Positions 23,538 to 58,909 of a stretch of 64,000 nucleotides of DNA are shown piece after piece. A program made the translations under genes and the position numbers. This DNA is from Pythium myriotylum (lineage: Eukaryota; Oomycota; Peronosporomycetes; Pythiales; Pythiaceae). Every line of letters starts with the position of its first letter. The first letter of the stretch is position 1. The stretch lies in the NCBI GenBank assembly GCA_023091665.1, contig JALJCQ010000001.1, positions 2,728,001 through 2,792,000 of the forward strand. Reading direction: 5' to 3'. The notes below the pieces were generated by a model that was given only the letters and a program-made list of their open reading frames with translations, searched no databases and had not been told where the DNA came from.

Positions 23538-23630
23538 TTAACCCTTTCGCAATCAACCTTGTAAATTTTGCACGTTCCGAGGGTTTCTCATAAGACGGTG
23601 TGATTGATCCCTCTGAACGTGCAGATTTTA

Positions 23631-25201: not shown

Positions 25202-25458
25202 TACACGTTTTACAAAACCAGTCCTTGAAGTTTCGCAAAATCTCAACAAAACCTCAAAATCTTCCAAGGTTAAATAACAATAATCTCGAAACTTGTTTGG
25301 ATTTTTGCGATGTTTTATTACAAAAGGTGGTATACTTGCGGAAAACTTCACCTGTCGCAATTCCAGAACGTGTAAAATTTACACGATCTGGAAATTTTGA
25401 CTTGATTAAAGTATCCATACAATCCCTGTTTGCACGGAGGTGATTGCGAAAGGGTTAA

Positions 25459-25880
25459 TACATTAATACATGGTTTTCTTGCGGTTCAACATGTTCTGTA
25501 TTTGGTCAGATCTGTACTATTAAACATGTCTCTTAGTTGAAGTGGGAGAGCAAATAGAATATGTATATTGTTTTCGTTTATGGTGCCCTCTTTTTCTTAT
25601 CCCGCCACACTATCATGAAATATAGAAATAAGTCGGGGGCATTTCTAGCACATAACCTTAGGTTTCTATCCAGTAATGTTGACACCAGCAACATGATCTC
25701 GATTCACAGCACGAGCAAGATCTTCTGCTTCGTAGTCACGATGATCATCATCGCTAAAACGTGCTGTCCACAGTCACACGCCGTCATCCGAGATACGAAA
25801 ACCAACGACGGTCCCGACAAAGTGGCTAGTCCTAAGTTAGCTCCCATGCCAACATCCACCTCGTCGAGGAGCTTCGAATG
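25459..25880. other. flank left of the Merlin element, probable far side of the MULE
   Basis: AT-rich DNA without a recognisable gene of its own. It ends with TTCGAATG (25873-25880), the left target duplication of Merlin. The sequence on the far side of Merlin (the first array unit) is the MULE C-terminal region, so this stretch should be the original continuation of that MULE. I could not identify a MULE terminal repeat here. Confidence 0.4.
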
Positions 25881-27288
25881 GGCTCTCCTTACTTAACAGT
25901 CCACATTGGTTAAATAGAATCGTACTTCAACGAATCGTACTTACATGAAGTTATGCAGTACAAGTACTCGTACTTAGACGAGCTGTGCCACTACTTGTCA
26001 GTGGTGAACCGAGCAGGGTGCTTCACGATGACGCGAACCAACCGAAGTACTCATTGACGGGAGCTTGCGGCTGGAAGTACCAGCTGCGCCAGAGCATCTC
26101 GTCGATAAGCGCCGCCGCCAGCTTCTTGGGAACGCCGCGCATGACCTTGATGTGGCGCTTCAGCTTGGCCTCCCAACAGCCCTCGATGCCATTGGTGTGG
26201 GCCCCTGTTGTGGGGTCCACAGTTCTTGGAGTGGTTCACGTACGTGTGGCGGTAGCGGAGCGCCTCGAGCAGTGGGTTGTTCTCGAGCGTGTGCAAGGTC
26301 ACAGTTCCGTTCTTCTTTCGCCCCTCTGAAACGTAGGACGCGAACATGTCGCTAATAATGTGTGTCCTACAGAGCTCATAACGGAACCATAAGAAAGAGA
26401 ACTCCAGCAAGAAACATAAACACGTACTCTGGGCGGATGTAGCGTGCGATCTGTGCACACAAGGTTGGCTTCGTGCGGTTCTCGTATGTGACGATCGCAA
26501 ACCACTTCTTGCTCGTGCGGTCGAAGCCGCCAAACACCCAGAAGTCAGGATGCTGCTTGCCTCTGTTGTACTTGGACTATTTTTTCAATGACGTCACGTC
26601 AATCTCCACGACATGGCCAGGTCCGCCGACCTGCGAGTGCAAAAACAAATGTTAAATGGTGCGGAGACGAGTAGTCTCAGAGGATACGTACAATCATGTC
26701 GCAATCGATCATCTCCTTGCTGCAGTAGCCGCGGCAGATGCCGTACCATTCGGTGACAGCCTTCTGGCTCACCGAGCACAGCTGGGCGGCTGTTGTTACC
26801 GCCGTGCCAATCGCAAAATGATAGAGAAGCTCACGCAGCAGCGCAGGGTGAGACGGCTGTGGAAGAACACCGTCCCCGATCGCAGGCTGAGGGCCTTGCG
26901 GTACTCTGTATTGTTACAGCGCCAGAGGCGCCGGTTCTTGTCGACCCTCATGGGGCCTGTGCACGTCGGGCAGGCCATGGAGGTGGGCAGCAAGCCGACC
27001 TCCATGCACCACGCGATCACAGCGTCACCCGAGGCCTGTGTGCACACGTTCATGACGAGATCGTGTGCGTACAGGCCCATGTTGGCCACCAGGTACTCGT
27101 AGGTGCACGGCTCCATGCGGACTGTTACTTCCCTTGATGGTCGATTTTTGTGTGACTGTCTGGAGGGCAGGGGGGGACTTTGGGCGGGAGGCATTTGGGC
27201 GGCAAAGGGGGTTGTTTGAACTCGACCCCGGTACACTGCATGTTCTACTAAGTACGTATCAGTTGTGGACTGTTAAGTAAGGAGAGCC
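25881..27288 (-). mobile_element. Merlin (IS1016-like) DNA transposon, 1408 bp
   Basis: Terminal inverted repeats of 25 bp (25881-25905 and 27264-27288, beginning GGCTCTCCTTACTTAACAG) match perfectly. They are flanked by the 8-bp duplication TTCGAATG at 25873-25880 and 27289-27296. A transposase of the IS1016/Merlin type lies on the minus strand. The last 81 bp of the element (27208-27288), with its terminal repeat, are also the first part of every unit of the adjacent tandem array. Confidence 0.9.
26023..27116 (-). pseudogene. Merlin transposase (two introns, broken)
   Basis: It starts at the ATG at 27116 (MEPCTYEYLVANMG). A zinc-ribbon-like N-terminus (CPTC...WRC) is followed by a helix-turn-helix region (AAQLCSVSQKAVTEWYGICR). 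The DDE core follows with GGPGHVVEID, HPDFWVFGGFDRTSKKW, ISDMFASY, YVNHSKN and TGAHTNGIEGCW, the order and spacing of IS1016/Merlin enzymes. Two 61-nt GT-AG introns are apparent at 26631-26691 and 26367-26427. Damage: a frameshift near 26848, an in-frame TAG at about 26580 just after VEIDVTSLKK, and a 1-nt frameshift near 26218. The gene is therefore probably dead, although the element's ends are perfect. Confidence 0.8.
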
Positions 27289-30200
27289 TTCGAATGCACG
27301 GGCTGACCGGGCCGTCTGACGAAAAGGCGAGTCAAACGTCCACGTCGAAGTAACCTTCCTGCCCCCCTCCACCGCAAGACCGGGGCCACGTCTCCGGGGT
27401 CTGCCCGGACCGCGGTGAACTGGAACCCCTGCCATTGCTGCATCCAGGTCGATAAGTCAGTGGATACGCAGCGTGACAAGTACGTGAGAGCATACCCAGC
27501 CAGAGCGGGCGTTGGCTTTCCAAGCGCACCGAAGACATGAGCGAACCTGTCTGACGGCGTCGTCTTCTCAAACGCGGGGGAGGTCGAATGGCTCTTGAGG
27601 CAGCCGGCGAAGTATCGTCACTCGGTGACGGGAGAGGACTTCGTATCGAAGCTCTTCTGCTGTGATACCGTCTGAAATAACGCTTTCCAGGGACGCTGAG
27701 AACCGCTTTGCGCGTGCTGAGCACCGATGACGTTCCCAGGCCGTGCAATGTAGCGACGAGAATTGAACAACAGGGCGACGACACGGCGGATGCGACCTCT
27801 CCCTCGATGAAGGCGCCGATAGTTACTTGAGTTCGTGAGTAGCTGAGCCTTAGCTAGGGGTTGTTTGAACTCGACCCCGGTACACTGCATGTTCTACTAA
27901 GTACGTATCAGTTGTGGACTGTTAAGTAAGGAGAGCCTTCGAATGCACGGGCTGACCGGGCCGTCTGACGAAAAGGCGAGTCAAACGTCCACGTCGAAGT
28001 AACCTTCCTGCCCCCCTCCACCGCAAGACCGGGGCCACGTCTCCGGGGTCTGCCCGGACCGCGGTGAACTGGAACCCCTGCCATTGCTGCATCCAGGTCG
28101 ATAAGTCAGTGGATACGCAGCGTGACAAGTACGTGAGAGCATACCCAGCCAGAGCGGGCGTTGGCTTTCCAAGCGCACCGAAGACATGAGCGAACCTGTC
28201 TGACGGCGTCGTCTTCTCAAACGCGGGGGAGGTCGAATGGCTCTTGAGGCAGCCGGCGAAGTATCGTCACTCGGTGACGGGAGAGGACTTCGTATCGAAG
28301 CTCTTCTGCTGTGATACCGTCTGAAATAACGCTTTCCAGGGACGCTGAGAACCGCTTTGCGCGTGCTGAGCACCGATGACGTTCCCAGGCCGTGCAATGT
28401 AGCGACGAGAATTGAACAACAGGGCGACGACACGGCGGATGCGACCTCTCCCTCGATGAAGGCGCCGATAGTTACTTGAGTTCGTGAGTAGCTGAGCCTT
28501 AGCTAGGGGTTGTTTGAACTCGACCCCGGTACACTGCATGTTCTACTAAGTACGTATCAGTTGTGGACTGTTAAGTAAGGAGAGCCTTCGAATGCACGGG
28601 CTGACCGGGCCGTCTGACGAAAAGGCGAGTCAAACGTCCACGTCGAAGTAACCTTCCTGCCCCCCTCCACCGCAAGACCGGGGCCACGTCTCCGGGGTCT
28701 GCCCGGACCGCGGTGAACTGGAACCCCTGCCATTGCTGCATCCAGGTCGATAAGTCAGTGGATACGCAGCGTGACAAGTACGTGAGAGCATACCCAGCCA
28801 GAGCGGGCGTTGGCTTTCCAAGCGCACCGAAGACATGAGCGAACCTGTCTGACGGCGTCGTCTTCTCAAACGCGGGGGAGGTCGAATGGCTCTTGAGGCA
28901 GCCGGCGAAGTATCGTCACTCGGTGACGGGAGAGGACTTCGTATCGAAGCTCTTCTGCTGTGATACCGTCTGAAATAACGCTTTCCAGGGACGCTGAGAA
29001 CCGCTTTGCGCGTGCTGAGCACCGATGACGTTCCCAGGCCGTGCAATGTAGCGACGAGAATTGAACAACAGGGCGACGACACGGCGGATGCGACCTCTCC
29101 CTCGATGAAGGCGCCGATAGTTACTTGAGTTCGTGAGTAGCTGAGCCTTAGCTAGGGGTTGTTTGAACTCGACCCCGGTACACTGCATGTTCTACTAAGT
29201 ACGTATCAGTTGTGGACTGTTAAGTAAGGAGAGCCTTCGAATGCACGGGCTGACCGGGCCGTCTGACGAAAAGGCGAGTCAAACGTCCACGTCGAAGTAA
29301 CCTTCCTGCCCCCCTCCACCGCAAGACCGGGGCCACGTCTCCGGGGTCTGCCCGGACCGCGGTGAACTGGAACCCCTGCCATTGCTGCATCCAGGTCGAT
29401 AAGTCAGTGGATACGCAGCGTGACAAGTACGTGAGAGCATACCCAGCCAGAGCGGGCGTTGGCTTTCCAAGCGCACCGAAGACATGAGCGAACCTGTCTG
29501 ACGGCGTCGTCTTCTCAAACGCGGGGGAGGTCGAATGGCTCTTGAGGCAGCCGGCGAAGTATCGTCACTCGGTGACGGGAGAGGACTTCGTATCGAAGCT
29601 CTTCTGCTGTGATACCGTCTGAAATAACGCTTTCCAGGGACGCTGAGAACCGCTTTGCGCGTGCTGAGCACCGATGACGTTCCCAGGCCGTGCAATGTAG
29701 CGACGAGAATTGAACAACAGGGCGACGACACGGCGGATGCGACCTCTCCCTCGATGAAGGCGCCGATAGTTACTTGAGTTCGTGAGTAGCTGAGCCTTAG
29801 CTAGGGGTTGTTTGAACTCGACCCCGGTACACTGCATGTTCTACTAAGTACGTATCAGTTGTGGACTGTTAAGTAAGGAGAGCCTTCGAATGCACGGGCT
29901 GACCGGGCCGTCTGACGAAAAGGCGAGTCAAACGTCCACGTCGAAGTAACCTTCCTGCCCCCCTCCACCGCAAGACCGGGGCCACGTCTCCGGGGTCTGC
30001 CCGGACCGCGGTGAACTGGAACCCCTGCCATTGCTGCATCCAGGTCGATAAGTCAGTGGATACGCAGCGTGACAAGTACGTGAGAGCATACCCAGCCAGA
30101 GCGGGCGTTGGCTTTCCAAGCGCACCGAAGACATGAGCGAACCTGTCTGACGGCGTCGTCTTCTCAAACGCGGGGGAGGTCGAATGGCTCTTGAGGCAGC

Positions 30201-33200
30201 CGGCGAAGTATCGTCACTCGGTGACGGGAGAGGACTTCGTATCGAAGCTCTTCTGCTGTGATACCGTCTGAAATAACGCTTTCCAGGGACGCTGAGAACC
30301 GCTTTGCGCGTGCTGAGCACCGATGACGTTCCCAGGCCGTGCAATGTAGCGACGAGAATTGAACAACAGGGCGACGACACGGCGGATGCGACCTCTCCCT
30401 CGATGAAGGCGCCGATAGTTACTTGAGTTCGTGAGTAGCTGAGCCTTAGCTAGGGGTTGTTTGAACTCGACCCCGGTACACTGCATGTTCTACTAAGTAC
30501 GTATCAGTTGTGGACTGTTAAGTAAGGAGAGCCTTCGAATGCACGGGCTGACCGGGCCGTCTGACGAAAAGGCGAGTCAAACGTCCACGTCGAAGTAACC
30601 TTCCTGCCCCCCTCCACCGCAAGACCGGGGCCACGTCTCCGGGGTCTGCCCGGACCGCGGTGAACTGGAACCCCTGCCATTGCTGCATCCAGGTCGATAA
30701 GTCAGTGGATACGCAGCGTGACAAGTACGTGAGAGCATACCCAGCCAGAGCGGGCGTTGGCTTTCCAAGCGCACCGAAGACATGAGCGAACCTGTCTGAC
30801 GGCGTCGTCTTCTCAAACGCGGGGGAGGTCGAATGGCTCTTGAGGCAGCCGGCGAAGTATCGTCACTCGGTGACGGGAGAGGACTTCGTATCGAAGCTCT
30901 TCTGCTGTGATACCGTCTGAAATAACGCTTTCCAGGGACGCTGAGAACCGCTTTGCGCGTGCTGAGCACCGATGACGTTCCCAGGCCGTGCAATGTAGCG
31001 ACGAGAATTGAACAACAGGGCGACGACACGGCGGATGCGACCTCTCCCTCGATGAAGGCGCCGATAGTTACTTGAGTTCGTGAGTAGCTGAGCCTTAGCT
31101 AGGGGTTGTTTGAACTCGACCCCGGTACACTGCATGTTCTACTAAGTACGTATCAGTTGTGGACTGTTAAGTAAGGAGAGCCTTCGAATGCACGGGCTGA
31201 CCGGGCCGTCTGACGAAAAGGCGAGTCAAACGTCCACGTCGAAGTAACCTTCCTGCCCCCCTCCACCGCAAGACCGGGGCCACGTCTCCGGGGTCTGCCC
31301 GGACCGCGGTGAACTGGAACCCCTGCCATTGCTGCATCCAGGTCGATAAGTCAGTGGATACGCAGCGTGACAAGTACGTGAGAGCATACCCAGCCAGAGC
31401 GGGCGTTGGCTTTCCAAGCGCACCGAAGACATGAGCGAACCTGTCTGACGGCGTCGTCTTCTCAAACGCGGGGGAGGTCGAATGGCTCTTGAGGCAGCCG
31501 GCGAAGTATCGTCACTCGGTGACGGGAGAGGACTTCGTATCGAAGCTCTTCTGCTGTGATACCGTCTGAAATAACGCTTTCCAGGGACGCTGAGAACCGC
31601 TTTGCGCGTGCTGAGCACCGATGACGTTCCCAGGCCGTGCAATGTAGCGACGAGAATTGAACAACAGGGCGACGACACGGCGGATGCGACCTCTCCCTCG
31701 ATGAAGGCGCCGATAGTTACTTGAGTTCGTGAGTAGCTGAGCCTTAGCTAGGGGTTGTTTGAACTCGACCCCGGTACACTGCATGTTCTACTAAGTACGT
31801 ATCAGTTGTGGACTGTTAAGTAAGGAGAGCCTTCGAATGCACGGGCTGACCGGGCCGTCTGACGAAAAGGCGAGTCAAACGTCCACGTCGAAGTAACCTT
31901 CCTGCCCCCCTCCACCGCAAGACCGGGGCCACGTCTCCGGGGTCTGCCCGGACCGCGGTGAACTGGAACCCCTGCCATTGCTGCATCCAGGTCGATAAGT
32001 CAGTGGATACGCAGCGTGACAAGTACGTGAGAGCATACCCAGCCAGAGCGGGCGTTGGCTTTCCAAGCGCACCGAAGACATGAGCGAACCTGTCTGACGG
32101 CGTCGTCTTCTCAAACGCGGGGGAGGTCGAATGGCTCTTGAGGCAGCCGGCGAAGTATCGTCACTCGGTGACGGGAGAGGACTTCGTATCGAAGCTCTTC
32201 TGCTGTGATACCGTCTGAAATAACGCTTTCCAGGGACGCTGAGAACCGCTTTGCGCGTGCTGAGCACCGATGACGTTCCCAGGCCGTGCAATGTAGCGAC
32301 GAGAATTGAACAACAGGGCGACGACACGGCGGATGCGACCTCTCCCTCGATGAAGGCGCCGATAGTTACTTGAGTTCGTGAGTAGCTGAGCCTTAGCTAG
32401 GGGTTGTTTGAACTCGACCCCGGTACACTGCATGTTCTACTAAGTACGTATCAGTTGTGGACTGTTAAGTAAGGAGAGCCTTCGAATGCACGGGCTGACC
32501 GGGCCGTCTGACGAAAAGGCGAGTCAAACGTCCACGTCGAAGTAACCTTCCTGCCCCCCTCCACCGCAAGACCGGGGCCACGTCTCCGGGGTCTGCCCGG
32601 ACCGCGGTGAACTGGAACCCCTGCCATTGCTGCATCCAGGTCGATAAGTCAGTGGATACGCAGCGTGACAAGTACGTGAGAGCATACCCAGCCAGAGCGG
32701 GCGTTGGCTTTCCAAGCGCACCGAAGACATGAGCGAACCTGTCTGACGGCGTCGTCTTCTCAAACGCGGGGGAGGTCGAATGGCTCTTGAGGCAGCCGGC
32801 GAAGTATCGTCACTCGGTGACGGGAGAGGACTTCGTATCGAAGCTCTTCTGCTGTGATACCGTCTGAAATAACGCTTTCCAGGGACGCTGAGAACCGCTT
32901 TGCGCGTGCTGAGCACCGATGACGTTCCCAGGCCGTGCAATGTAGCGACGAGAATTGAACAACAGGGCGACGACACGGCGGATGCGACCTCTCCCTCGAT
33001 GAAGGCGCCGATAGTTACTTGAGTTCGTGAGTAGCTGAGCCTTAGCTAGGGGTTGTTTGAACTCGACCCCGGTACACTGCATGTTCTACTAAGTACGTAT
33101 CAGTTGTGGACTGTTAAGTAAGGAGAGCCTTCGAATGCACGGGCTGACCGGGCCGTCTGACGAAAAGGCGAGTCAAACGTCCACGTCGAAGTAACCTTCC

Positions 33201-36200
33201 TGCCCCCCTCCACCGCAAGACCGGGGCCACGTCTCCGGGGTCTGCCCGGACCGCGGTGAACTGGAACCCCTGCCATTGCTGCATCCAGGTCGATAAGTCA
33301 GTGGATACGCAGCGTGACAAGTACGTGAGAGCATACCCAGCCAGAGCGGGCGTTGGCTTTCCAAGCGCACCGAAGACATGAGCGAACCTGTCTGACGGCG
33401 TCGTCTTCTCAAACGCGGGGGAGGTCGAATGGCTCTTGAGGCAGCCGGCGAAGTATCGTCACTCGGTGACGGGAGAGGACTTCGTATCGAAGCTCTTCTG
33501 CTGTGATACCGTCTGAAATAACGCTTTCCAGGGACGCTGAGAACCGCTTTGCGCGTGCTGAGCACCGATGACGTTCCCAGGCCGTGCAATGTAGCGACGA
33601 GAATTGAACAACAGGGCGACGACACGGCGGATGCGACCTCTCCCTCGATGAAGGCGCCGATAGTTACTTGAGTTCGTGAGTAGCTGAGCCTTAGCTAGGG
33701 GTTGTTTGAACTCGACCCCGGTACACTGCATGTTCTACTAAGTACGTATCAGTTGTGGACTGTTAAGTAAGGAGAGCCTTCGAATGCACGGGCTGACCGG
33801 GCCGTCTGACGAAAAGGCGAGTCAAACGTCCACGTCGAAGTAACCTTCCTGCCCCCCTCCACCGCAAGACCGGGGCCACGTCTCCGGGGTCTGCCCGGAC
33901 CGCGGTGAACTGGAACCCCTGCCATTGCTGCATCCAGGTCGATAAGTCAGTGGATACGCAGCGTGACAAGTACGTGAGAGCATACCCAGCCAGAGCGGGC
34001 GTTGGCTTTCCAAGCGCACCGAAGACATGAGCGAACCTGTCTGACGGCGTCGTCTTCTCAAACGCGGGGGAGGTCGAATGGCTCTTGAGGCAGCCGGCGA
34101 AGTATCGTCACTCGGTGACGGGAGAGGACTTCGTATCGAAGCTCTTCTGCTGTGATACCGTCTGAAATAACGCTTTCCAGGGACGCTGAGAACCGCTTTG
34201 CGCGTGCTGAGCACCGATGACGTTCCCAGGCCGTGCAATGTAGCGACGAGAATTGAACAACAGGGCGACGACACGGCGGATGCGACCTCTCCCTCGATGA
34301 AGGCGCCGATAGTTACTTGAGTTCGTGAGTAGCTGAGCCTTAGCTAGGGGTTGTTTGAACTCGACCCCGGTACACTGCATGTTCTACTAAGTACGTATCA
34401 GTTGTGGACTGTTAAGTAAGGAGAGCCTTCGAATGCACGGGCTGACCGGGCCGTCTGACGAAAAGGCGAGTCAAACGTCCACGTCGAAGTAACCTTCCTG
34501 CCCCCCTCCACCGCAAGACCGGGGCCACGTCTCCGGGGTCTGCCCGGACCGCGGTGAACTGGAACCCCTGCCATTGCTGCATCCAGGTCGATAAGTCAGT
34601 GGATACGCAGCGTGACAAGTACGTGAGAGCATACCCAGCCAGAGCGGGCGTTGGCTTTCCAAGCGCACCGAAGACATGAGCGAACCTGTCTGACGGCGTC
34701 GTCTTCTCAAACGCGGGGGAGGTCGAATGGCTCTTGAGGCAGCCGGCGAAGTATCGTCACTCGGTGACGGGAGAGGACTTCGTATCGAAGCTCTTCTGCT
34801 GTGATACCGTCTGAAATAACGCTTTCCAGGGACGCTGAGAACCGCTTTGCGCGTGCTGAGCACCGATGACGTTCCCAGGCCGTGCAATGTAGCGACGAGA
34901 ATTGAACAACAGGGCGACGACACGGCGGATGCGACCTCTCCCTCGATGAAGGCGCCGATAGTTACTTGAGTTCGTGAGTAGCTGAGCCTTAGCTAGGGGT
35001 TGTTTGAACTCGACCCCGGTACACTGCATGTTCTACTAAGTACGTATCAGTTGTGGACTGTTAAGTAAGGAGAGCCTTCGAATGCACGGGCTGACCGGGC
35101 CGTCTGACGAAAAGGCGAGTCAAACGTCCACGTCGAAGTAACCTTCCTGCCCCCCTCCACCGCAAGACCGGGGCCACGTCTCCGGGGTCTGCCCGGACCG
35201 CGGTGAACTGGAACCCCTGCCATTGCTGCATCCAGGTCGATAAGTCAGTGGATACGCAGCGTGACAAGTACGTGAGAGCATACCCAGCCAGAGCGGGCGT
35301 TGGCTTTCCAAGCGCACCGAAGACATGAGCGAACCTGTCTGACGGCGTCGTCTTCTCAAACGCGGGGGAGGTCGAATGGCTCTTGAGGCAGCCGGCGAAG
35401 TATCGTCACTCGGTGACGGGAGAGGACTTCGTATCGAAGCTCTTCTGCTGTGATACCGTCTGAAATAACGCTTTCCAGGGACGCTGAGAACCGCTTTGCG
35501 CGTGCTGAGCACCGATGACGTTCCCAGGCCGTGCAATGTAGCGACGAGAATTGAACAACAGGGCGACGACACGGCGGATGCGACCTCTCCCTCGATGAAG
35601 GCGCCGATAGTTACTTGAGTTCGTGAGTAGCTGAGCCTTAGCTAGGGGTTGTTTGAACTCGACCCCGGTACACTGCATGTTCTACTAAGTACGTATCAGT
35701 TGTGGACTGTTAAGTAAGGAGAGCCTTCGAATGCACGGGCTGACCGGGCCGTCTGACGAAAAGGCGAGTCAAACGTCCACGTCGAAGTAACCTTCCTGCC
35801 CCCCTCCACCGCAAGACCGGGGCCACGTCTCCGGGGTCTGCCCGGACCGCGGTGAACTGGAACCCCTGCCATTGCTGCATCCAGGTCGATAAGTCAGTGG
35901 ATACGCAGCGTGACAAGTACGTGAGAGCATACCCAGCCAGAGCGGGCGTTGGCTTTCCAAGCGCACCGAAGACATGAGCGAACCTGTCTGACGGCGTCGT
36001 CTTCTCAAACGCGGGGGAGGTCGAATGGCTCTTGAGGCAGCCGGCGAAGTATCGTCACTCGGTGACGGGAGAGGACTTCGTATCGAAGCTCTTCTGCTGT
36101 GATACCGTCTGAAATAACGCTTTCCAGGGACGCTGAGAACCGCTTTGCGCGTGCTGAGCACCGATGACGTTCCCAGGCCGTGCAATGTAGCGACGAGAAT

Positions 36201-39200
36201 TGAACAACAGGGCGACGACACGGCGGATGCGACCTCTCCCTCGATGAAGGCGCCGATAGTTACTTGAGTTCGTGAGTAGCTGAGCCTTAGCTAGGGGTTG
36301 TTTGAACTCGACCCCGGTACACTGCATGTTCTACTAAGTACGTATCAGTTGTGGACTGTTAAGTAAGGAGAGCCTTCGAATGCACGGGCTGACCGGGCCG
36401 TCTGACGAAAAGGCGAGTCAAACGTCCACGTCGAAGTAACCTTCCTGCCCCCCTCCACCGCAAGACCGGGGCCACGTCTCCGGGGTCTGCCCGGACCGCG
36501 GTGAACTGGAACCCCTGCCATTGCTGCATCCAGGTCGATAAGTCAGTGGATACGCAGCGTGACAAGTACGTGAGAGCATACCCAGCCAGAGCGGGCGTTG
36601 GCTTTCCAAGCGCACCGAAGACATGAGCGAACCTGTCTGACGGCGTCGTCTTCTCAAACGCGGGGGAGGTCGAATGGCTCTTGAGGCAGCCGGCGAAGTA
36701 TCGTCACTCGGTGACGGGAGAGGACTTCGTATCGAAGCTCTTCTGCTGTGATACCGTCTGAAATAACGCTTTCCAGGGACGCTGAGAACCGCTTTGCGCG
36801 TGCTGAGCACCGATGACGTTCCCAGGCCGTGCAATGTAGCGACGAGAATTGAACAACAGGGCGACGACACGGCGGATGCGACCTCTCCCTCGATGAAGGC
36901 GCCGATAGTTACTTGAGTTCGTGAGTAGCTGAGCCTTAGCTAGGGGTTGTTTGAACTCGACCCCGGTACACTGCATGTTCTACTAAGTACGTATCAGTTG
37001 TGGACTGTTAAGTAAGGAGAGCCTTCGAATGCACGGGCTGACCGGGCCGTCTGACGAAAAGGCGAGTCAAACGTCCACGTCGAAGTAACCTTCCTGCCCC
37101 CCTCCACCGCAAGACCGGGGCCACGTCTCCGGGGTCTGCCCGGACCGCGGTGAACTGGAACCCCTGCCATTGCTGCATCCAGGTCGATAAGTCAGTGGAT
37201 ACGCAGCGTGACAAGTACGTGAGAGCATACCCAGCCAGAGCGGGCGTTGGCTTTCCAAGCGCACCGAAGACATGAGCGAACCTGTCTGACGGCGTCGTCT
37301 TCTCAAACGCGGGGGAGGTCGAATGGCTCTTGAGGCAGCCGGCGAAGTATCGTCACTCGGTGACGGGAGAGGACTTCGTATCGAAGCTCTTCTGCTGTGA
37401 TACCGTCTGAAATAACGCTTTCCAGGGACGCTGAGAACCGCTTTGCGCGTGCTGAGCACCGATGACGTTCCCAGGCCGTGCAATGTAGCGACGAGAATTG
37501 AACAACAGGGCGACGACACGGCGGATGCGACCTCTCCCTCGATGAAGGCGCCGATAGTTACTTGAGTTCGTGAGTAGCTGAGCCTTAGCTAGGGGTTGTT
37601 TGAACTCGACCCCGGTACACTGCATGTTCTACTAAGTACGTATCAGTTGTGGACTGTTAAGTAAGGAGAGCCTTCGAATGCACGGGCTGACCGGGCCGTC
37701 TGACGAAAAGGCGAGTCAAACGTCCACGTCGAAGTAACCTTCCTGCCCCCCTCCACCGCAAGACCGGGGCCACGTCTCCGGGGTCTGCCCGGACCGCGGT
37801 GAACTGGAACCCCTGCCATTGCTGCATCCAGGTCGATAAGTCAGTGGATACGCAGCGTGACAAGTACGTGAGAGCATACCCAGCCAGAGCGGGCGTTGGC
37901 TTTCCAAGCGCACCGAAGACATGAGCGAACCTGTCTGACGGCGTCGTCTTCTCAAACGCGGGGGAGGTCGAATGGCTCTTGAGGCAGCCGGCGAAGTATC
38001 GTCACTCGGTGACGGGAGAGGACTTCGTATCGAAGCTCTTCTGCTGTGATACCGTCTGAAATAACGCTTTCCAGGGACGCTGAGAACCGCTTTGCGCGTG
38101 CTGAGCACCGATGACGTTCCCAGGCCGTGCAATGTAGCGACGAGAATTGAACAACAGGGCGACGACACGGCGGATGCGACCTCTCCCTCGATGAAGGCGC
38201 CGATAGTTACTTGAGTTCGTGAGTAGCTGAGCCTTAGCTAGGGGTTGTTTGAACTCGACCCCGGTACACTGCATGTTCTACTAAGTACGTATCAGTTGTG
38301 GACTGTTAAGTAAGGAGAGCCTTCGAATGCACGGGCTGACCGGGCCGTCTGACGAAAAGGCGAGTCAAACGTCCACGTCGAAGTAACCTTCCTGCCCCCC
38401 TCCACCGCAAGACCGGGGCCACGTCTCCGGGGTCTGCCCGGACCGCGGTGAACTGGAACCCCTGCCATTGCTGCATCCAGGTCGATAAGTCAGTGGATAC
38501 GCAGCGTGACAAGTACGTGAGAGCATACCCAGCCAGAGCGGGCGTTGGCTTTCCAAGCGCACCGAAGACATGAGCGAACCTGTCTGACGGCGTCGTCTTC
38601 TCAAACGCGGGGGAGGTCGAATGGCTCTTGAGGCAGCCGGCGAAGTATCGTCACTCGGTGACGGGAGAGGACTTCGTATCGAAGCTCTTCTGCTGTGATA
38701 CCGTCTGAAATAACGCTTTCCAGGGACGCTGAGAACCGCTTTGCGCGTGCTGAGCACCGATGACGTTCCCAGGCCGTGCAATGTAGCGACGAGAATTGAA
38801 CAACAGGGCGACGACACGGCGGATGCGACCTCTCCCTCGATGAAGGCGCCGATAGTTACTTGAGTTCGTGAGTAGCTGAGCCTTAGCTAGGGGTTGTTTG
38901 AACTCGACCCCGGTACACTGCATGTTCTACTAAGTACGTATCAGTTGTGGACTGTTAAGTAAGGAGAGCCTTCGAATGCACGGGCTGACCGGGCCGTCTG
39001 ACGAAAAGGCGAGTCAAACGTCCACGTCGAAGTAACCTTCCTGCCCCCCTCCACCGCAAGACCGGGGCCACGTCTCCGGGGTCTGCCCGGACCGCGGTGA
39101 ACTGGAACCCCTGCCATTGCTGCATCCAGGTCGATAAGTCAGTGGATACGCAGCGTGACAAGTACGTGAGAGCATACCCAGCCAGAGCGGGCGTTGGCTT

Positions 39201-45200: not shown

Positions 45201-48200
45201 TAACGCTTTCCAGGGACGCTGAGAACCGCTTTGCGCGTGCTGAGCACCGATGACGTTCCCAGGCCGTGCAATGTAGCGACGAGAATTGAACAACAGGGCG
45301 ACGACACGGCGGATGCGACCTCTCCCTCGATGAAGGCGCCGATAGTTACTTGAGTTCGTGAGTAGCTGAGCCTTAGCTAGGGGTTGTTTGAACTCGACCC
45401 CGGTACACTGCATGTTCTACTAAGTACGTATCAGTTGTGGACTGTTAAGTAAGGAGAGCCTTCGAATGCACGGGCTGACCGGGCCGTCTGACGAAAAGGC
45501 GAGTCAAACGTCCACGTCGAAGTAACCTTCCTGCCCCCCTCCACCGCAAGACCGGGGCCACGTCTCCGGGGTCTGCCCGGACCGCGGTGAACTGGAACCC
45601 CTGCCATTGCTGCATCCAGGTCGATAAGTCAGTGGATACGCAGCGTGACAAGTACGTGAGAGCATACCCAGCCAGAGCGGGCGTTGGCTTTCCAAGCGCA
45701 CCGAAGACATGAGCGAACCTGTCTGACGGCGTCGTCTTCTCAAACGCGGGGGAGGTCGAATGGCTCTTGAGGCAGCCGGCGAAGTATCGTCACTCGGTGA
45801 CGGGAGAGGACTTCGTATCGAAGCTCTTCTGCTGTGATACCGTCTGAAATAACGCTTTCCAGGGACGCTGAGAACCGCTTTGCGCGTGCTGAGCACCGAT
45901 GACGTTCCCAGGCCGTGCAATGTAGCGACGAGAATTGAACAACAGGGCGACGACACGGCGGATGCGACCTCTCCCTCGATGAAGGCGCCGATAGTTACTT
46001 GAGTTCGTGAGTAGCTGAGCCTTAGCTAGGGGTTGTTTGAACTCGACCCCGGTACACTGCATGTTCTACTAAGTACGTATCAGTTGTGGACTGTTAAGTA
46101 AGGAGAGCCTTCGAATGCACGGGCTGACCGGGCCGTCTGACGAAAAGGCGAGTCAAACGTCCACGTCGAAGTAACCTTCCTGCCCCCCTCCACCGCAAGA
46201 CCGGGGCCACGTCTCCGGGGTCTGCCCGGACCGCGGTGAACTGGAACCCCTGCCATTGCTGCATCCAGGTCGATAAGTCAGTGGATACGCAGCGTGACAA
46301 GTACGTGAGAGCATACCCAGCCAGAGCGGGCGTTGGCTTTCCAAGCGCACCGAAGACATGAGCGAACCTGTCTGACGGCGTCGTCTTCTCAAACGCGGGG
46401 GAGGTCGAATGGCTCTTGAGGCAGCCGGCGAAGTATCGTCACTCGGTGACGGGAGAGGACTTCGTATCGAAGCTCTTCTGCTGTGATACCGTCTGAAATA
46501 ACGCTTTCCAGGGACGCTGAGAACCGCTTTGCGCGTGCTGAGCACCGATGACGTTCCCAGGCCGTGCAATGTAGCGACGAGAATTGAACAACAGGGCGAC
46601 GACACGGCGGATGCGACCTCTCCCTCGATGAAGGCGCCGATAGTTACTTGAGTTCGTGAGTAGCTGAGCCTTAGCTAGGGGTTGTTTGAACTCGACCCCG
46701 GTACACTGCATGTTCTACTAAGTACGTATCAGTTGTGGACTGTTAAGTAAGGAGAGCCTTCGAATGCACGGGCTGACCGGGCCGTCTGACGAAAAGGCGA
46801 GTCAAACGTCCACGTCGAAGTAACCTTCCTGCCCCCCTCCACCGCAAGACCGGGGCCACGTCTCCGGGGTCTGCCCGGACCGCGGTGAACTGGAACCCCT
46901 GCCATTGCTGCATCCAGGTCGATAAGTCAGTGGATACGCAGCGTGACAAGTACGTGAGAGCATACCCAGCCAGAGCGGGCGTTGGCTTTCCAAGCGCACC
47001 GAAGACATGAGCGAACCTGTCTGACGGCGTCGTCTTCTCAAACGCGGGGGAGGTCGAATGGCTCTTGAGGCAGCCGGCGAAGTATCGTCACTCGGTGACG
47101 GGAGAGGACTTCGTATCGAAGCTCTTCTGCTGTGATACCGTCTGAAATAACGCTTTCCAGGGACGCTGAGAACCGCTTTGCGCGTGCTGAGCACCGATGA
47201 CGTTCCCAGGCCGTGCAATGTAGCGACGAGAATTGAACAACAGGGCGACGACACGGCGGATGCGACCTCTCCCTCGATGAAGGCGCCGATAGTTACTTGA
47301 GTTCGTGAGTAGCTGAGCCTTAGCTAGGGGTTGTTTGAACTCGACCCCGGTACACTGCATGTTCTACTAAGTACGTATCAGTTGTGGACTGTTAAGTAAG
47401 GAGAGCCTTCGAATGCACGGGCTGACCGGGCCGTCTGACGAAAAGGCGAGTCAAACGTCCACGTCGAAGTAACCTTCCTGCCCCCCTCCACCGCAAGACC
47501 GGGGCCACGTCTCCGGGGTCTGCCCGGACCGCGGTGAACTGGAACCCCTGCCATTGCTGCATCCAGGTCGATAAGTCAGTGGATACGCAGCGTGACAAGT
47601 ACGTGAGAGCATACCCAGCCAGAGCGGGCGTTGGCTTTCCAAGCGCACCGAAGACATGAGCGAACCTGTCTGACGGCGTCGTCTTCTCAAACGCGGGGGA
47701 GGTCGAATGGCTCTTGAGGCAGCCGGCGAAGTATCGTCACTCGGTGACGGGAGAGGACTTCGTATCGAAGCTCTTCTGCTGTGATACCGTCTGAAATAAC
47801 GCTTTCCAGGGACGCTGAGAACCGCTTTGCGCGTGCTGAGCACCGATGACGTTCCCAGGCCGTGCAATGTAGCGACGAGAATTGAACAACAGGGCGACGA
47901 CACGGCGGATGCGACCTCTCCCTCGATGAAGGCGCCGATAGTTACTTGAGTTCGTGAGTAGCTGAGCCTTAGCTAGGGGTTGTTTGAACTCGACCCCGGT
48001 ACACTGCATGTTCTACTAAGTACGTATCAGTTGTGGACAGTTAAGTAAGGAGAGCCTTCGAATGCACGGGCTGACCGGGCCGTCTGACGAAAAGGCGAGT
48101 CAAACGTCCACGTCGAAGTAACCTTCCTGCCCCCCTCCACCGCAAGACCGGGGCCACGTCTCCGGGGTCTGCCCGGACCGCGGTGAACTGGAACCCCTGC

Positions 48201-51200
48201 CATTGCTGCATCCAGGTCGATAAGTCAGTGGATACGCAGCGTGACAAGTACGTGAGAGCATACCCAGCCAGAGCGGGCGTTGGCTTTCCAAGCGCACCGA
48301 AGACATGAGCGAACCTGTCTGACGGCGTCGTCTTCTCAAACGCGGGGGAGGTCGAATGGCTCTTGAGGCAGCCGGCGAAGTATCGTCACTCGGTGACGGG
48401 AGAGGACTTCGTATCGAAGCTCTTCTGCTGTGATACCGTCTGAAATAACGCTTTCCAGGGACGCTGAGAACCGCTTTGCGCGTGCTGAGCACCGATGACG
48501 TTCCCAGGCCGTGCAATGTAGCGACGAGAATTGAACAACAGGGCGACGACACGGCGGATGCGACCTCTCCCTCGATGAAGGCGCCGATAGTTACTTGAGT
48601 TCGTGAGTAGCTGAGCCTTAGCTAGGGGTTGTTTGAACTCGACCCCGGTACACTGCATGTTCTACTAAGTACGTATCAGTTGTGGACTGTTAAGTAAGGA
48701 GAGCCTTCGAATGCACGGGCTGACCGGGCCGTCTGACGAAAAGGCGAGTCAAACGTCCACGTCGAAGTAACCTTCCTGCCCCCCTCCACCGCAAGACCGG
48801 GGCCACGTCTCCGGGGTCTGCCCGGACCGCGGTGAACTGGAACCCCTGCCATTGCTGCATCCAGGTCGATAAGTCAGTGGATACGCAGCGTGACAAGTAC
48901 GTGAGAGCATACCCAGCCAGAGCGGGCGTTGGCTTTCCAAGCGCACCGAAGACATGAGCGAACCTGTCTGACGGCGTCGTCTTCTCAAACGCGGGGGAGG
49001 TCGAATGGCTCTTGAGGCAGCCGGCGAAGTATCGTCACTCGGTGACGGGAGAGGACTTCGTATCGAAGCTCTTCTGCTGTGATACCGTCTGAAATAACGC
49101 TTTCCAGGGACGCTGAGAACCGCTTTGCGCGTGCTGAGCACCGATGACGTTCCCAGGCCGTGCAATGTAGCGACGAGAATTGAACAACAGGGCGACGACA
49201 CGGCGGATGCGACCTCTCCCTCGATGAAGGCGCCGATAGTTACTTGAGTTCGTGAGTAGCTGAGCCTTAGCTAGGGGTTGTTTGAACTCGACCCCGGTAC
49301 ACTGCATGTTCTACTAAGTACGTATCAGTTGTGGACTGTTAAGTAAGGAGAGCCTTCGAATGCACGGGCTGACCGGGCCGTCTGACGAAAAGGCGAGTCA
49401 AACGTCCACGTCGAAGTAACCTTCCTGCCCCCCTCCACCGCAAGACCGGGGCCACGTCTCCGGGGTCTGCCCGGACCGCGGTGAACTGGAACCCCTGCCA
49501 TTGCTGCATCCAGGTCGATAAGTCAGTGGATACGCAGCGTGACAAGTACGTGAGAGCATACCCAGCCAGAGCGGGCGTTGGCTTTCCAAGCGCACCGAAG
49601 ACATGAGCGAACCTGTCTGACGGCGTCGTCTTCTCAAACGCGGGGGAGGTCGAATGGCTCTTGAGGCAGCCGGCGAAGTATCGTCACTCGGTGACGGGAG
49701 AGGACTTCGTATCGAAGCTCTTCTGCTGTGATACCGTCTGAAATAACGCTTTCCAGGGACGCTGAGAACCGCTTTGCGCGTGCTGAGCACCGATGACGTT
49801 CCCAGGCCGTGCAATGTAGCGACGAGAATTGAACAACAGGGCGACGACACGGCGGATGCGACCTCTCCCTCGATGAAGGCGCCGATAGTTACTTGAGTTC
49901 GTGAGTAGCTGAGCCTTAGCTAGGGGTTGTTTGAACTCGACCCCGGTACACTGCATGTTCTACTAAGTACGTATCAGTTGTGGACTGTTAAGTAAGGAGA
50001 GCCTTCGAATGCACGGGCTGACCGGGCCGTCTGACGAAAAGGCGAGTCAAACGTCCACGTCGAAGTAACCTTCCTGCCCCCCTCCACCGCAAGACCGGGG
50101 CCACGTCTCCGGGGTCTGCCCGGACCGCGGTGAACTGGAACCCCTGCCATTGCTGCATCCAGGTCGATAAGTCAGTGGATACGCAGCGTGACAAGTACGT
50201 GAGAGCATACCCAGCCAGAGCGGGCGTTGGCTTTCCAAGCGCACCGAAGACATGAGCGAACCTGTCTGACGGCGTCGTCTTCTCAAACGCGGGGGAGGTC
50301 GAATGGCTCTTGAGGCAGCCGGCGAAGTATCGTCACTCGGTGACGGGAGAGGACTTCGTATCGAAGCTCTTCTGCTGTGATACCGTCTGAAATAACGCTT
50401 TCCAGGGACGCTGAGAACCGCTTTGCGCGTGCTGAGCACCGATGACGTTCCCAGGCCGTGCAATGTAGCGACGAGAATTGAACAACAGGGCGACGACACG
50501 GCGGATGCGACCTCTCCCTCGATGAAGGCGCCGATAGTTACTTGAGTTCGTGAGTAGCTGAGCCTTAGCTAGGGGTTGTTTGAACTCGACCCCGGTACAC
50601 TGCATGTTCTACTAAGTACGTATCAGTTGTGGACTGTTAAGTAAGGAGAGCCTTCGAATGCACGGGCTGACCGGGCCGTCTGACGAAAAGGCGAGTCAAA
50701 CGTCCACGTCGAAGTAACCTTCCTGCCCCCCTCCACCGCAAGACCGGGGCCACGTCTCCGGGGTCTGCCCGGACCGCGGTGAACTGGAACCCCTGCCATT
50801 GCTGCATCCAGGTCGATAAGTCAGTGGATACGCAGCGTGACAAGTACGTGAGAGCATACCCAGCCAGAGCGGGCGTTGGCTTTCCAAGCGCACCGAAGAC
50901 ATGAGCGAACCTGTCTGACGGCGTCGTCTTCTCAAACGCGGGGGAGGTCGAATGGCTCTTGAGGCAGCCGGCGAAGTATCGTCACTCGGTGACGGGAGAG
51001 GACTTCGTATCGAAGCTCTTCTGCTGTGATACCGTCTGAAATAACGCTTTCCAGGGACGCTGAGAACCGCTTTGCGCGTGCTGAGCACCGATGACGTTCC
51101 CAGGCCGTGCAATGTAGCGACGAGAATTGAACAACAGGGCGACGACACGGCGGATGCGACCTCTCCCTCGATGAAGGCGCCGATAGTTACTTGAGTTCGT

Positions 51201-54200
51201 GAGTAGCTGAGCCTTAGCTAGGGGTTGTTTGAACTCGACCCCGGTACACTGCATGTTCTACTAAGTACGTATCAGTTGTGGACTGTTAAGTAAGGAGAGC
51301 CTTCGAATGCACGGGCTGACCGGGCCGTCTGACGAAAAGGCGAGTCAAACGTCCACGTCGAAGTAACCTTCCTGCCCCCCTCCACCGCAAGACCGGGGCC
51401 ACGTCTCCGGGGTCTGCCCGGACCGCGGTGAACTGGAACCCCTGCCATTGCTGCATCCAGGTCGATAAGTCAGTGGATACGCAGCGTGACAAGTACGTGA
51501 GAGCATACCCAGCCAGAGCGGGCGTTGGCTTTCCAAGCGCACCGAAGACATGAGCGAACCTGTCTGACGGCGTCGTCTTCTCAAACGCGGGGGAGGTCGA
51601 ATGGCTCTTGAGGCAGCCGGCGAAGTATCGTCACTCGGTGACGGGAGAGGACTTCGTATCGAAGCTCTTCTGCTGTGATACCGTCTGAAATAACGCTTTC
51701 CAGGGACGCTGAGAACCGCTTTGCGCGTGCTGAGCACCGATGACGTTCCCAGGCCGTGCAATGTAGCGACGAGAATTGAACAACAGGGCGACGACACGGC
51801 GGATGCGACCTCTCCCTCGATGAAGGCGCCGATAGTTACTTGAGTTCGTGAGTAGCTGAGCCTTAGCTAGGGGTTGTTTGAACTCGACCCCGGTACACTG
51901 CATGTTCTACTAAGTACGTATCAGTTGTGGACTGTTAAGTAAGGAGAGCCTTCGAATGCACGGGCTGACCGGGCCGTCTGACGAAAAGGCGAGTCAAACG
52001 TCCACGTCGAAGTAACCTTCCTGCCCCCCTCCACCGCAAGACCGGGGCCACGTCTCCGGGGTCTGCCCGGACCGCGGTGAACTGGAACCCCTGCCATTGC
52101 TGCATCCAGGTCGATAAGTCAGTGGATACGCAGCGTGACAAGTACGTGAGAGCATACCCAGCCAGAGCGGGCGTTGGCTTTCCAAGCGCACCGAAGACAT
52201 GAGCGAACCTGTCTGACGGCGTCGTCTTCTCAAACGCGGGGGAGGTCGAATGGCTCTTGAGGCAGCCGGCGAAGTATCGTCACTCGGTGACGGGAGAGGA
52301 CTTCGTATCGAAGCTCTTCTGCTGTGATACCGTCTGAAATAACGCTTTCCAGGGACGCTGAGAACCGCTTTGCGCGTGCTGAGCACCGATGACGTTCCCA
52401 GGCCGTGCAATGTAGCGACGAGAATTGAACAACAGGGCGACGACACGGCGGATGCGACCTCTCCCTCGATGAAGGCGCCGATAGTTACTTGAGTTCGTGA
52501 GTAGCTGAGCCTTAGCTAGGGGTTGTTTGAACTCGACCCCGGTACACTGCATGTTCTACTAAGTACGTATCAGTTGTGGACTGTTAAGTAAGGAGAGCCT
52601 TCGAATGCACGGGCTGACCGGGCCGTCTGACGAAAAGGCGAGTCAAACGTCCACGTCGAAGTAACCTTCCTGCCCCCCTCCACCGCAAGACCGGGGCCAC
52701 GTCTCCGGGGTCTGCCCGGACCGCGGTGAACTGGAACCCCTGCCATTGCTGCATCCAGGTCGATAAGTCAGTGGATACGCAGCGTGACAAGTACGTGAGA
52801 GCATACCCAGCCAGAGCGGGCGTTGGCTTTCCAAGCGCACCGAAGACATGAGCGAACCTGTCTGACGGCGTCGTCTTCTCAAACGCGGGGGAGGTCGAAT
52901 GGCTCTTGAGGCAGCCGGCGAAGTATCGTCACTCGGTGACGGGAGAGGACTTCGTATCGAAGCTCTTCTGCTGTGATACCGTCTGAAATAACGCTTTCCA
53001 GGGACGCTGAGAACCGCTTTGCGCGTGCTGAGCACCGATGACGTTCCCAGGCCGTGCAATGTAGCGACGAGAATTGAACAACAGGGCGACGACACGGCGG
53101 ATGCGACCTCTCCCTCGATGAAGGCGCCGATAGTTACTTGAGTTCGTGAGTAGCTGAGCCTTAGCTAGGGGTTGTTTGAACTCGACCCCGGTACACTGCA
53201 TGTTCTACTAAGTACGTATCAGTTGTGGACTGTTAAGTAAGGAGAGCCTTCGAATGCACGGGCTGACCGGGCCGTCTGACGAAAAGGCGAGTCAAACGTC
53301 CACGTCGAAGTAACCTTCCTGCCCCCCTCCACCGCAAGACCGGGGCCACGTCTCCGGGGTCTGCCCGGACCGCGGTGAACTGGAACCCCTGCCATTGCTG
53401 CATCCAGGTCGATAAGTCAGTGGATACGCAGCGTGACAAGTACGTGAGAGCATACCCAGCCAGAGCGGGCGTTGGCTTTCCAAGCGCACCGAAGACATGA
53501 GCGAACCTGTCTGACGGCGTCGTCTTCTCAAACGCGGGGGAGGTCGAATGGCTCTTGAGGCAGCCGGCGAAGTATCGTCACTCGGTGACGGGAGAGGACT
53601 TCGTATCGAAGCTCTTCTGCTGTGATACCGTCTGAAATAACGCTTTCCAGGGACGCTGAGAACCGCTTTGCGCGTGCTGAGCACCGATGACGTTCCCAGG
53701 CCGTGCAATGTAGCGACGAGAATTGAACAACAGGGCGACGACACGGCGGATGCGACCTCTCCCTCGATGAAGGCGCCGATAGTTACTTGAGTTCGTGAGT
53801 AGCTGAGCCTTAGCTAGGGGTTGTTTGAACTCGACCCCGGTACACTGCATGTTCTACTAAGTACGTATCAGTTGTGGACTGTTAAGTAAGGAGAGCCTTC
53901 GAATGCACGGGCTGACCGGGCCGTCTGACGAAAAGGCGAGTCAAACGTCCACGTCGAAGTAACCTTCCTGCCCCCCTCCACCGCAAGACCGGGGCCACGT
54001 CTCCGGGGTCTGCCCGGACCGCGGTGAACTGGAACCCCTGCCATTGCTGCATCCAGGTCGATAAGTCAGTGGATACGCAGCGTGACAAGTACGTGAGAGC
54101 ATACCCAGCCAGAGCGGGCGTTGGCTTTCCAAGCGCACCGAAGACATGAGCGAACCTGTCTGACGGCGTCGTCTTCTCAAACGCGGGGGAGGTCGAATGG

Positions 54201-55763
54201 CTCTTGAGGCAGCCGGCGAAGTATCGTCACTCGGTGACGGGAGAGGACTTCGTATCGAAGCTCTTCTGCTGTGATACCGTCTGAAATAACGCTTTCCAGG
54301 GACGCTGAGAACCGCTTTGCGCGTGCTGAGCACCGATGACGTTCCCAGGCCGTGCAATGTAGCGACGAGAATTGAACAACAGGGCGACGACACGGCGGAT
54401 GCGACCTCTCCCTCGATGAAGGCGCCGATAGTTACTTGAGTTCGTGAGTAGCTGAGCCTTAGCTAGGGGTTGTTTGAACTCGACCCCGGTACACTGCATG
54501 TTCTACTAAGTACGTATCAGTTGTGGACTGTTAAGTAAGGAGAGCCTTCGAATGCACGGGCTGACCGGGCCGTCTGACGAAAAGGCGAGTCAAACGTCCA
54601 CGTCGAAGTAACCTTCCTGCCCCCCTCCACCGCAAGACCGGGGCCACGTCTCCGGGGTCTGCCCGGACCGCGGTGAACTGGAACCCCTGCCATTGCTGCA
54701 TCCAGGTCGATAAGTCAGTGGATACGCAGCGTGACAAGTACGTGAGAGCATACCCAGCCAGAGCGGGCGTTGGCTTTCCAAGCGCACCGAAGACATGAGC
54801 GAACCTGTCTGACGGCGTCGTCTTCTCAAACGCGGGGGAGGTCGAATGGCTCTTGAGGCAGCCGGCGAAGTATCGTCACTCGGTGACGGGAGAGGACTTC
54901 GTATCGAAGCTCTTCTGCTGTGATACCGTCTGAAATAACGCTTTCCAGGGACGCTGAGAACCGCTTTGCGCGTGCTGAGCACCGATGACGTTCCCAGGCC
55001 GTGCAATGTAGCGACGAGAATTGAACAACAGGGCGACGACACGGCGGATGCGACCTCTCCCTCGATGAAGGCGCCGATAGTTACTTGAGTTCGTGAGTAG
55101 CTGAGCCTTAGCTAGGGGTTGTTTGAACTCGACCCCGGTACACTGCATGTTCTACTAAGTACGTATCAGTTGTGGACTGTTAAGTAAGGAGAGCCTTCGA
55201 ATGCACGGGCTGACCGAGCCGTCTGACGAAAAGGCGAGTCAAACGTCCACGTCGAAGTAACCTTCCTGCCCCCCTCCACCGCAAGACCGGGGCCACGTCT
55301 CCGGGGTCTGCCCGGACCGCGGTGAACTGGAACCCCTGCCATTGCTGCATCCAGGTCGATAAGTCAGTGGATACGCAGCGTGACAAGTACGTGAGAGCAT
55401 ACCCAGCCAGAGCGGGCGTTGGCTTTCCAAGCGCACCGAAGACATGAGCGAACCTGTCTGACGGCGTCGTCTTCTCAAACGCGGGGGAGGTCGAATGGCT
55501 CTTGAGGCAGCCGGCGAAGTATCGTCACTCGGTGACGGGAGAGGACTTCGTATCGAAGCTCTTCTGCTGTGATACCGTCTGAAATAACGCTTTCCAGGGA
55601 CGCTGAGAACCGCTTTGCGCGTGCTGAGCACCGATGACGTTCCCAGGCCGTGCAATGTAGCGACGAGAATTGAACAACAGGGCGACGACACGGCGGATGC
55701 GACCTCTCCCTCGATGAAGGCGCCGATAGTTACTTGAGTTCGTGAGTAGCTGAGCCTTAGCTA
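27208..55763. repeat. 44-copy tandem array of a 649-bp unit (new satellite)
   Basis: Exactly 44 head-to-tail units (44 x 649 = 28556 bp); unit 1 is 27208-27856 and unit 44 is 55115-55763. In each unit, positions 1-81 are the right end of Merlin including its terminal repeat. Positions 82-89 are the target duplication TTCGAATG, and 90-649 are the C-terminal part of a MULE transposase gene on the minus strand. The units are nearly identical: I found only three substitutions, at 41422 (unit 22), 48039 (unit 33, inside the Merlin terminal repeat) and 55217 (unit 44). The left edge lies inside Merlin and the right edge inside the MULE gene, where non-repeated sequence continues. Three overlapping minus-strand open frames (150, 90 and 68 codons) recur in each unit, but none matches a family as a whole and I do not annotate them as genes. 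Confidence 0.97.
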
Positions 55764-57300: not shown

Positions 57301-57724
57301 CAAAGTCCAAGCTGGCGTCTGTTTCCACTGGGGACTGGTATCTTCGTCGTCGGAAGTCTTCGACTTGGCAATTTTGGAAGTGACTTGATGCCGGATAGCT
57401 CTACGCTTCTCAACACTGTGTTGCACGCAGTACGCCAAGCGGAAGCGTAGAATGATTGCTCTCTTCTATTCGTTTCGGGTGGACTAGCATGCGATTGTAG
57501 CAGTTTTGTCTGCGACATTTGGTGTGCAACAGCACTTTGTAGCCCTTCACTACGCATTCGTGGTTGTTGTTTGTGCTCTATACTTCGTGAGTAATAGCTG
57601 GCCACCACATCAAGATTGTCGCGTGTCTGTTATTCTTTGTGAGTAATTTGTTTGCGTGCACGCAGCTTCCGCCCATCATCCAGGCCCAGTTCTGCTATGG
57701 CTAACACCTGCCGTTAGGGGGATG
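57301..57724. other. unassigned interval
   Basis: Probably the 5' flank of the MULE gene and its terminal region. I see no gene and could not find a matching inverted repeat at the far left side. Confidence 0.3.
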
Positions 57725-58828: not shown

Positions 58829-58909
58829 TCTGGTGCAGCAATTCGTAGAACAATTACAACTGAATGACAACCGAAAATCACATGTATTGTCCCAACTCCT
58901 GTCGACATC

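Follow-up and report, generated by a model that had tools for sequence, protein, structure and literature searches.

A probable composite proto-satellite of 649-bp units at a nested Merlin/MULE-like junction in Pythium myriotylum

Organization of the locus

The window analysed in the current study is a 64,000-nt stretch of Pythium myriotylum contig C1 (C1:2728001-2792000). Its main feature is a tandem array (C1:2755208-2783763) lying between parts of two putative DNA transposons. The features discussed below are, in window coordinates:

22204-23210: left MULE-like part, two pieces matched by the copy on contig C12 (L065)
25455-25880: MULE-like piece separating Merlin from the left TTAA insertions; identity to the C12 copy (L065 4262-4674) 86%
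25873-25880: left 8-bp target duplication, TTCGAATG
25881-27288, - strand: predicted Merlin element, 1408 bp, with a broken transposase frame (from its ends and the sibling alignment)
27165-27211, + strand: Merlin G-quadruplex motif (loops up to 8), with the left array boundary in its last G-run
27208-55763: array of 44 units of 649 bp (from self-comparison)
27208-27856: unit 1, consisting of Merlin end (27208-27288), duplication (27289-27296) and MULE-like DNA (27297-27856)
27289-27296: right 8-bp target duplication, TTCGAATG, recurring at unit positions 82-89 in all units
55115-55763: unit 44, with the SNP at 55217, joined directly to the remaining MULE (paralogues cross 55763/55764)
55764-57726, - strand: MULE-like element right of the array (weak MULE domain at 55805-56512; paralogues)
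60735-60770: last right-hand MULE-like piece, 36 bp, past a TTAA-flanked insertion, 89% to L065 6667-6702

The tandem array

As assembled, the array consists of 44 head-to-tail units without a single indel, and the extent given in the initial annotation proved exact to the base. Self-comparison of 27000-56000 at offsets of 20-1399 gave an identity of 98.9% at 649 and 98.8% at 1298, the best other offset reaching 30%. TRF failed to detect the array because its maximum period is 500.

Forty-one of the 44 units are identical, and units 22, 33 and 44 carry one private SNP each (41422 C>T, 48039 T>A and 55217 G>A, at unit positions 586, 64 and 103, respectively). Divergence inside the array is therefore 3 per 28,556 bases, and any two units differ at two positions at most; in length, homogeneity and head-to-tail arrangement the array resembles satellite DNA. 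Every paralogue that covers one of the three sites (the C12 copy at 103 and 586, a copy at C1:1823 kb at 586 and two Merlin copies at 64) has the majority base, which indicates that the three changes are derived. Since the units differ by these three private derived SNPs only, the present array is recent relative to the transposon insertions.

The SNP-bearing units are spaced exactly 11 units apart. The chance of a progression with step 11 is 0.17%, and that of any progression 3.5%; the spacing is without explanation and is taken as coincidence for now. A higher-order repeat of 11 units can be ruled out, as the three SNPs occupy different positions in the unit.

Within the unit, positions 1-81 are the Merlin right end, 82-89 are TTCGAATG and 90-649 are 560 bp of MULE-like DNA, with the boundaries that had been proposed initially. 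The monomer is thus assembled from parts of different transposable elements, as in composite satellites. The longest reading frame in the unit has 173 codons and 649 is not a multiple of 3, which rules out an open reading frame running through the array.

A 29-base pattern across the unit-unit junction, allowing two mismatches, occurs 43 times in the 58.7-Mb, 55-contig assembly, each time within this array, and a control pattern gave no match; a second array with the same junction is thereby ruled out within the assembly. The Merlin/MULE junction itself was not found in the assembly outside this locus, and its pattern had no match in viral contigs. The genome DNA search, which skips very common words and omitted the array itself (the pattern searches listed it), and whose repeat counts are lower bounds, returned four matches to the unit, none of them an unrelated source. 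The search of the whole assembly therefore agrees with the parentage first proposed. The term 'satellite' holds for the homogeneous tandem structure; several arrays with many copies, usually heterochromatic and a further mark of satellite DNA, are not present, the unit junction being confined to one array in the assembly, and with a single locus the array is better described as a proto-satellite.

The Merlin parent

The element at 25881-27288 has perfect terminal inverted repeats of 25 bp that start with GG (GGCTCTCC), as is typical of the Merlin superfamily, and the 8-bp TTCGAATG flanks it on both sides. Members of the Merlin superfamily are described as generating target site duplications of 8 or 9 bp (PMC8101967). 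A sibling at C1:1615600 (L066), 96.8% alike over 1400 alignment columns, carries an 8-bp duplication of its own, read from the alignment as TCTCGAGG; its left end has a 12-bp gap. A third, shortened copy is present on C11 (L067).

Compared with the C1 sibling, the window element shows four indels in its transposase region (1, 1, 2 and 4 bp) and stops in its frames, and a Pfam search with its own pieces gave no transposase domain match. A piece of the sibling matches PF12762 (DDE_Tnp_IS1595) weakly (E=0.014; 15.9 bits against a cut-off of 27). With the same piece, a protein search returned 20 proteins, of which 17 are marked PF12762; the best match, from Pythium insidiosum (59% alike), is itself not marked. 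Pieces of both copies also match the six genome loci marked PF12762, five of which are above the cut-off. Taken together, the ends, the target duplication and the transposase matches, PF12762 included, point to a Merlin element. The description of this copy as 'intact' is correct for its ends and target duplication, and must be dropped for its transposase frame.

A genome search for the 18-base Merlin end with up to two mismatches found 47 places. The array accounts for 44 of these; the others are the left end of this element, the C1 sibling and the C11 copy. A backward control pattern matched three places, so chance matches occur at such looseness, but the C1 sibling and the C11 copy were confirmed through longer alignments. 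The Merlin end of unit 33 carries one substitution.

Two minor observations concern related loci. A match to the IS1595 zinc ribbon PF12760 in the C1 sibling (L066 4923-5519; E=0.022; 15.1 bits against a cut-off of 25.4) is too weak to claim; according to PMC8101967, this domain has so far been absent from Merlin elements. Two of the PF12762 loci, at C9:1272285 and C9:1290751 (L070 and L071), lie ~18 kb apart with equal scores and one internal TAG each, and are possibly a local duplication.

The MULE-like host element

To the right of the array, a match to the MULE transposase domain PF10551 at 55805-56512 (- strand) covers nearly the whole profile and falls below the cut-off (E=4.4e-5; 24.3 bits against 27.6). 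A protein search with the MULE piece gave 522 candidates, none reaching E=0.001. Neither of the two largest frames of the unit has a match in Pfam, so the initial label of 'C-terminal coding' DNA rests on position beside the MULE domain; the MULE-like nature of this DNA is borne out by alignment to the C12 copy.

Long terminal inverted repeats and target duplications of 9-11 bp are characteristic of MULEs. In the C12 copy, two inverted arms of 64 nt with 72% complementarity lie 3351 nt apart. At least three genomic loci contain the right part of the MULE: the present one, C1:1823 kb and C12. The C12 copy matches the window at 22204-22856 (82% to L065 3286-3993), 22936-23210 (87% to L065 3990-4263; 22857-22935 is unmatched), 25455-25880, the unit together with 55764-55908, 56521-57726 and 60735-60770, and has no match to 55909-56520. 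MULE pieces thus flank the array on either side, so that the MULE encloses the whole locus, with the other elements inside it. The earlier placement of the rest of the MULE gene on the right is supported by paralogues that cross the array edge, and has to be extended, as MULE sequence is also found left of the array, at 22204-22856, 22936-23210 and 25455-25880.

The region 22204-61320 can be read as one MULE copy holding a deep nest of insertions, Merlin included. TTAA-flanked insertions were read from the sequence at ~23213-23537, ~23542-25454, ~57729-60735 and ~60770-61315. Inside one of these TTAA elements is a Tc1-like element with an uninterrupted frame of 441 codons, stop to stop (23617-24942, + strand), and a DDE_3 domain (E=5.9e-16); the element is probably young, given a similarity of 97.5% between its inverted ends (23629-23750 and 25082-25203). 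The TTAA element at ~57729-60735 has inverted ends CCCCTTGAGCCCGG, read by eye, and contains clustered tandem repeats at 58217-58831, with units of 50, 24, 65 and 43 bp, as well as imperfect palindromes at 58217-58573 and 58570-58831.

Order of events

Where the window has TTCGAATG-Merlin-TTCGAATG, the C12 paralogue has a single TTCCAATG. The C12 alignment spans the unit and the right array edge, with small gaps (a longer G-run and 10 bp extra in C12), and the C1:1823 kb paralogue also spans this edge, with small gaps and base changes. The left array edge is spanned by the C1 sibling Merlin. With gaps excluded, the unit is 91.6% identical to C12; the left flank reaches 89.6%, and two right-flank stretches reach 91.0% and 91.9%. 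The similar values in flanks and unit indicate that the unit is native to this MULE copy.

The Merlin-empty C12 site and the continuity across the array edges give the order MULE, Merlin, array. This upholds the initial proposal of a Merlin insertion followed by amplification of the junction. The array very probably originated in place from the Merlin/MULE junction, and can with good confidence be regarded as a composite proto-satellite born there from nested transposons.

The first duplication

The unit junction joins TTAGCTA to GGGGTTG, and as the native base after TTAGCTA is also G, there is an overlap of 1 bp. No shared word of 6 bp or more was found within 60 bp of the two breakpoints, which argues against a homology-driven first duplication, with repeat recombination as the first event, and favours end joining or template switching. 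It is likely that end joining with little homology made the first duplication.

A new observation concerns the left breakpoint: it is situated in the last G-run of a G-quadruplex motif of 47 nt (27165-27211, with loops of up to 8), which is common to all three Merlin copies, the L066 and L067 versions having small changes. In the 36-kb window that remains when the array is collapsed to one unit there are five such motifs, this being the sole one between 20000 and 62000; motifs plus 5 bp cover 0.72% of positions, a figure from a post hoc test made after the locus was seen. If loops are limited to 7, the motif stops at 27188, leaving 20 bp to the breakpoint, which then falls outside the motif plus 5 bp. 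G4Hunter gives equally high values near 1.3% of positions. No G-quadruplex motif is present at the right breakpoint.

In worms, breaks arise at G-quadruplex motifs and are mended mostly by polymerase theta, and helq-1 mutants acquire tandem duplications of ~100 bp-10 kb (median ~1 kb) with microhomology/end-joining junctions, as described in PMC8654963. In dog-1 mutants, G-quadruplex sites gave mainly deletions (PMC8078821). As breaks at such motifs in worms yield mainly deletions, the idea that the G-quadruplex caused the first duplication here is tentative, and on balance somewhat doubtful.

The sequence shows that Merlin inserted into the MULE-like element and generated the 8-bp target duplication, and that the 649 bp reaching from 81 bp inside the Merlin right end to 560 bp beyond the duplication were then joined head to tail, sharing 1 bp at the join. 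A proposed cause of the first duplication is a break or stalled fork at the G-quadruplex motif near the Merlin right end, repaired by end joining of the polymerase-theta type. Unequal sister-chromatid exchange, or break-induced copying in the wrong register, might then have raised the copy number from two to 44. Two copies suffice for either process.

Growth of the array and alternative origins

The whole G-quadruplex motif is absent from the array units, so it cannot alone explain growth from two to 44. The lack of variants shared between units suits a fast, recent rise; three SNPs cannot tell such a rise from strong homogenization or from rolling-circle amplification. In the latter case a 649-bp circle carrying the junction would have been released and copied as a rolling circle, and the resulting concatemer would have returned to the source locus by recombination. 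The near-perfect homogeneity, the lack of indels and the restriction of SNPs to single units all fit one burst of this kind, and a circle closed at the same two points would leave the same junction. However, the array is found only at its source, no reinsertion elsewhere, which this route would also allow, was seen, and homologous return to a single place is an extra step. Rolling-circle amplification is thus considered unlikely.

The copy number could itself be an artefact, the true locus holding one unit, or some other number, that was expanded or shortened by the assembler. Units of which 41 are identical are the hardest case for assemblers, and the exact 11-unit spacing of the SNPs is odd. 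Nevertheless, the assembly path is anchored by the two unique flanks and by three SNPs that differ from one another; neighbouring anchors are at most 21 units (~13.6 kb) apart, a distance that should be within reach of long reads. A head-to-tail junction also requires at least two real copies. An error of this type is decidedly improbable.

The position of the unit junction, 81 bp inside Merlin, rules out a direct product of transposition. It also counts against expansion driven by the Merlin transposase, in which cuts at the repeated right ends would have been repaired with gain of units. Every unit does keep a Merlin right end with its duplication, all of which could pair with the single left end, but the local transposase frame is broken and ends of this Merlin family are recognized at three loci only, making this route very improbable.

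Arrays of such size can form heterochromatin, and selection for a useful unit, for example in silencing or chromosome structure, for which no supporting evidence was found, can be set aside as extremely improbable, given a junction restricted to one of 55 contigs and a unit that no reading frame passes through. The array is expected to be without host function. In-place amplification of the Merlin/MULE junction remains the preferred origin.

Comparison with known systems

Most satellites are met long after their birth, when the source has decayed or moved. At this locus both parents are still present at the array edges, so the birth of a satellite can be read from one locus. What is unusual is a monomer that is the junction of two DNA transposons from different superfamilies, with its whole parentage at the edges. 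The open-access literature, searched by titles and abstract openings (most subscription-journal papers lie outside it), yielded no Merlin/MULE chimeric array, no nascent satellite at its source locus and no satellite birth with G-quadruplexes; searches of the same scope on Merlin satellites, nested junctions, oomycete satellites and composite monomers gave no such case.

Satellites derived from transposable elements are well known (PMC3648361, PMC9659126, PMC7004042), and in rye tandem repeats are reported to be co-amplified with adjacent elements (PMC4857426). Maize CRM1TR and CRM4TR resemble the present array in being satellite-like and derived from part of a transposable element, and illegitimate recombination was proposed for their first junction; each came from one centromeric retrotransposon subfamily, with a founder inferred by the authors (PMC3648361). 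Here, in contrast, a single locus combines two DNA transposon superfamilies and has kept its founding structure at both edges. In Drosophila, transposon dimers and a 16-copy hobo tandem (McGurk and Barbash, via PMC12628747) also indicate that transposons seed arrays in place. According to that review, the repeats there are complete elements, formed after two insertions into one site, whereas in this array an element end and host flank are repeated from an internal breakpoint.

The origin of multi-element monomers was treated as an open question in the same 2025 review, in which a graveyard of nested transposable elements was offered as a scenario (PMC12628747). The composite satellites of that hypothesis share with the present array monomers from different elements and nested old insertions; the scenario, as set out there, covers shuffled monomers, whereas the array described here is a single young case with its source visible. 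The locus provides a concrete instance of the nested-element scenario: both parents and the scar of the insertion can be seen, together with the two breakpoints, an empty site in a paralogue and an array almost free of mutations. It also allows sequence-based study of the first duplication and of the rate of copy-number change, in an oomycete.

Satellite DNAs of oomycetes had not been investigated before the 2020 Phytophthora parasitica paper, according to that paper, which described PpSat1 and PpSat2 (PMC7290008). PpSat1 is located where genes are sparse and TEs abundant, and a single monomer prevails. PpSat1 and PpSat2 differ from the array reported here in forming several arrays and in having monomers that, in the available text, are not traced to two named elements (PMC7290008).

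An association of Merlin with tandem repeats has been described elsewhere (PMC8101967); in that account the repeats lie inside the element, whereas here they run across its end and the insertion site. It was suggested by the same authors that Merlin could help spread proto-satellites (PMC8101967). As every unit of the present array keeps a Merlin right end facing the one left end, a transposase from outside could lift Merlin with any number of units. A speculative extension would make this Merlin family a seeder of satellites, the G-quadruplex inside its right end being a recurrent break site that duplicates the end and the DNA beyond, and a transposase supplied from elsewhere moving Merlin and units to new sites; at present this is distinctly unlikely.

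Other features of the window

Long C-rich or G-rich runs are present at 4036-4060, 16675-16731 and 18064-18122. A further long C-/G-rich run occurs in the C12 paralogue of the unit (L065 ~4955-4990), where the window has a short G-run only. On the + strand at 7916-12087 are a reverse transcriptase domain (PF00078), a Tf2-1-like SH3 domain and a chromo-domain match below the cut-off, which look like pieces of a chromovirus-type LTR retrotransposon. A C2H2 protein is encoded at 1647-3497; its best named match is from Pythium oligandrum (61% over 77% of the query), followed by other oomycetes, with a metagenome protein scoring above P. oligandrum and animal zinc-finger proteins ranking lower.
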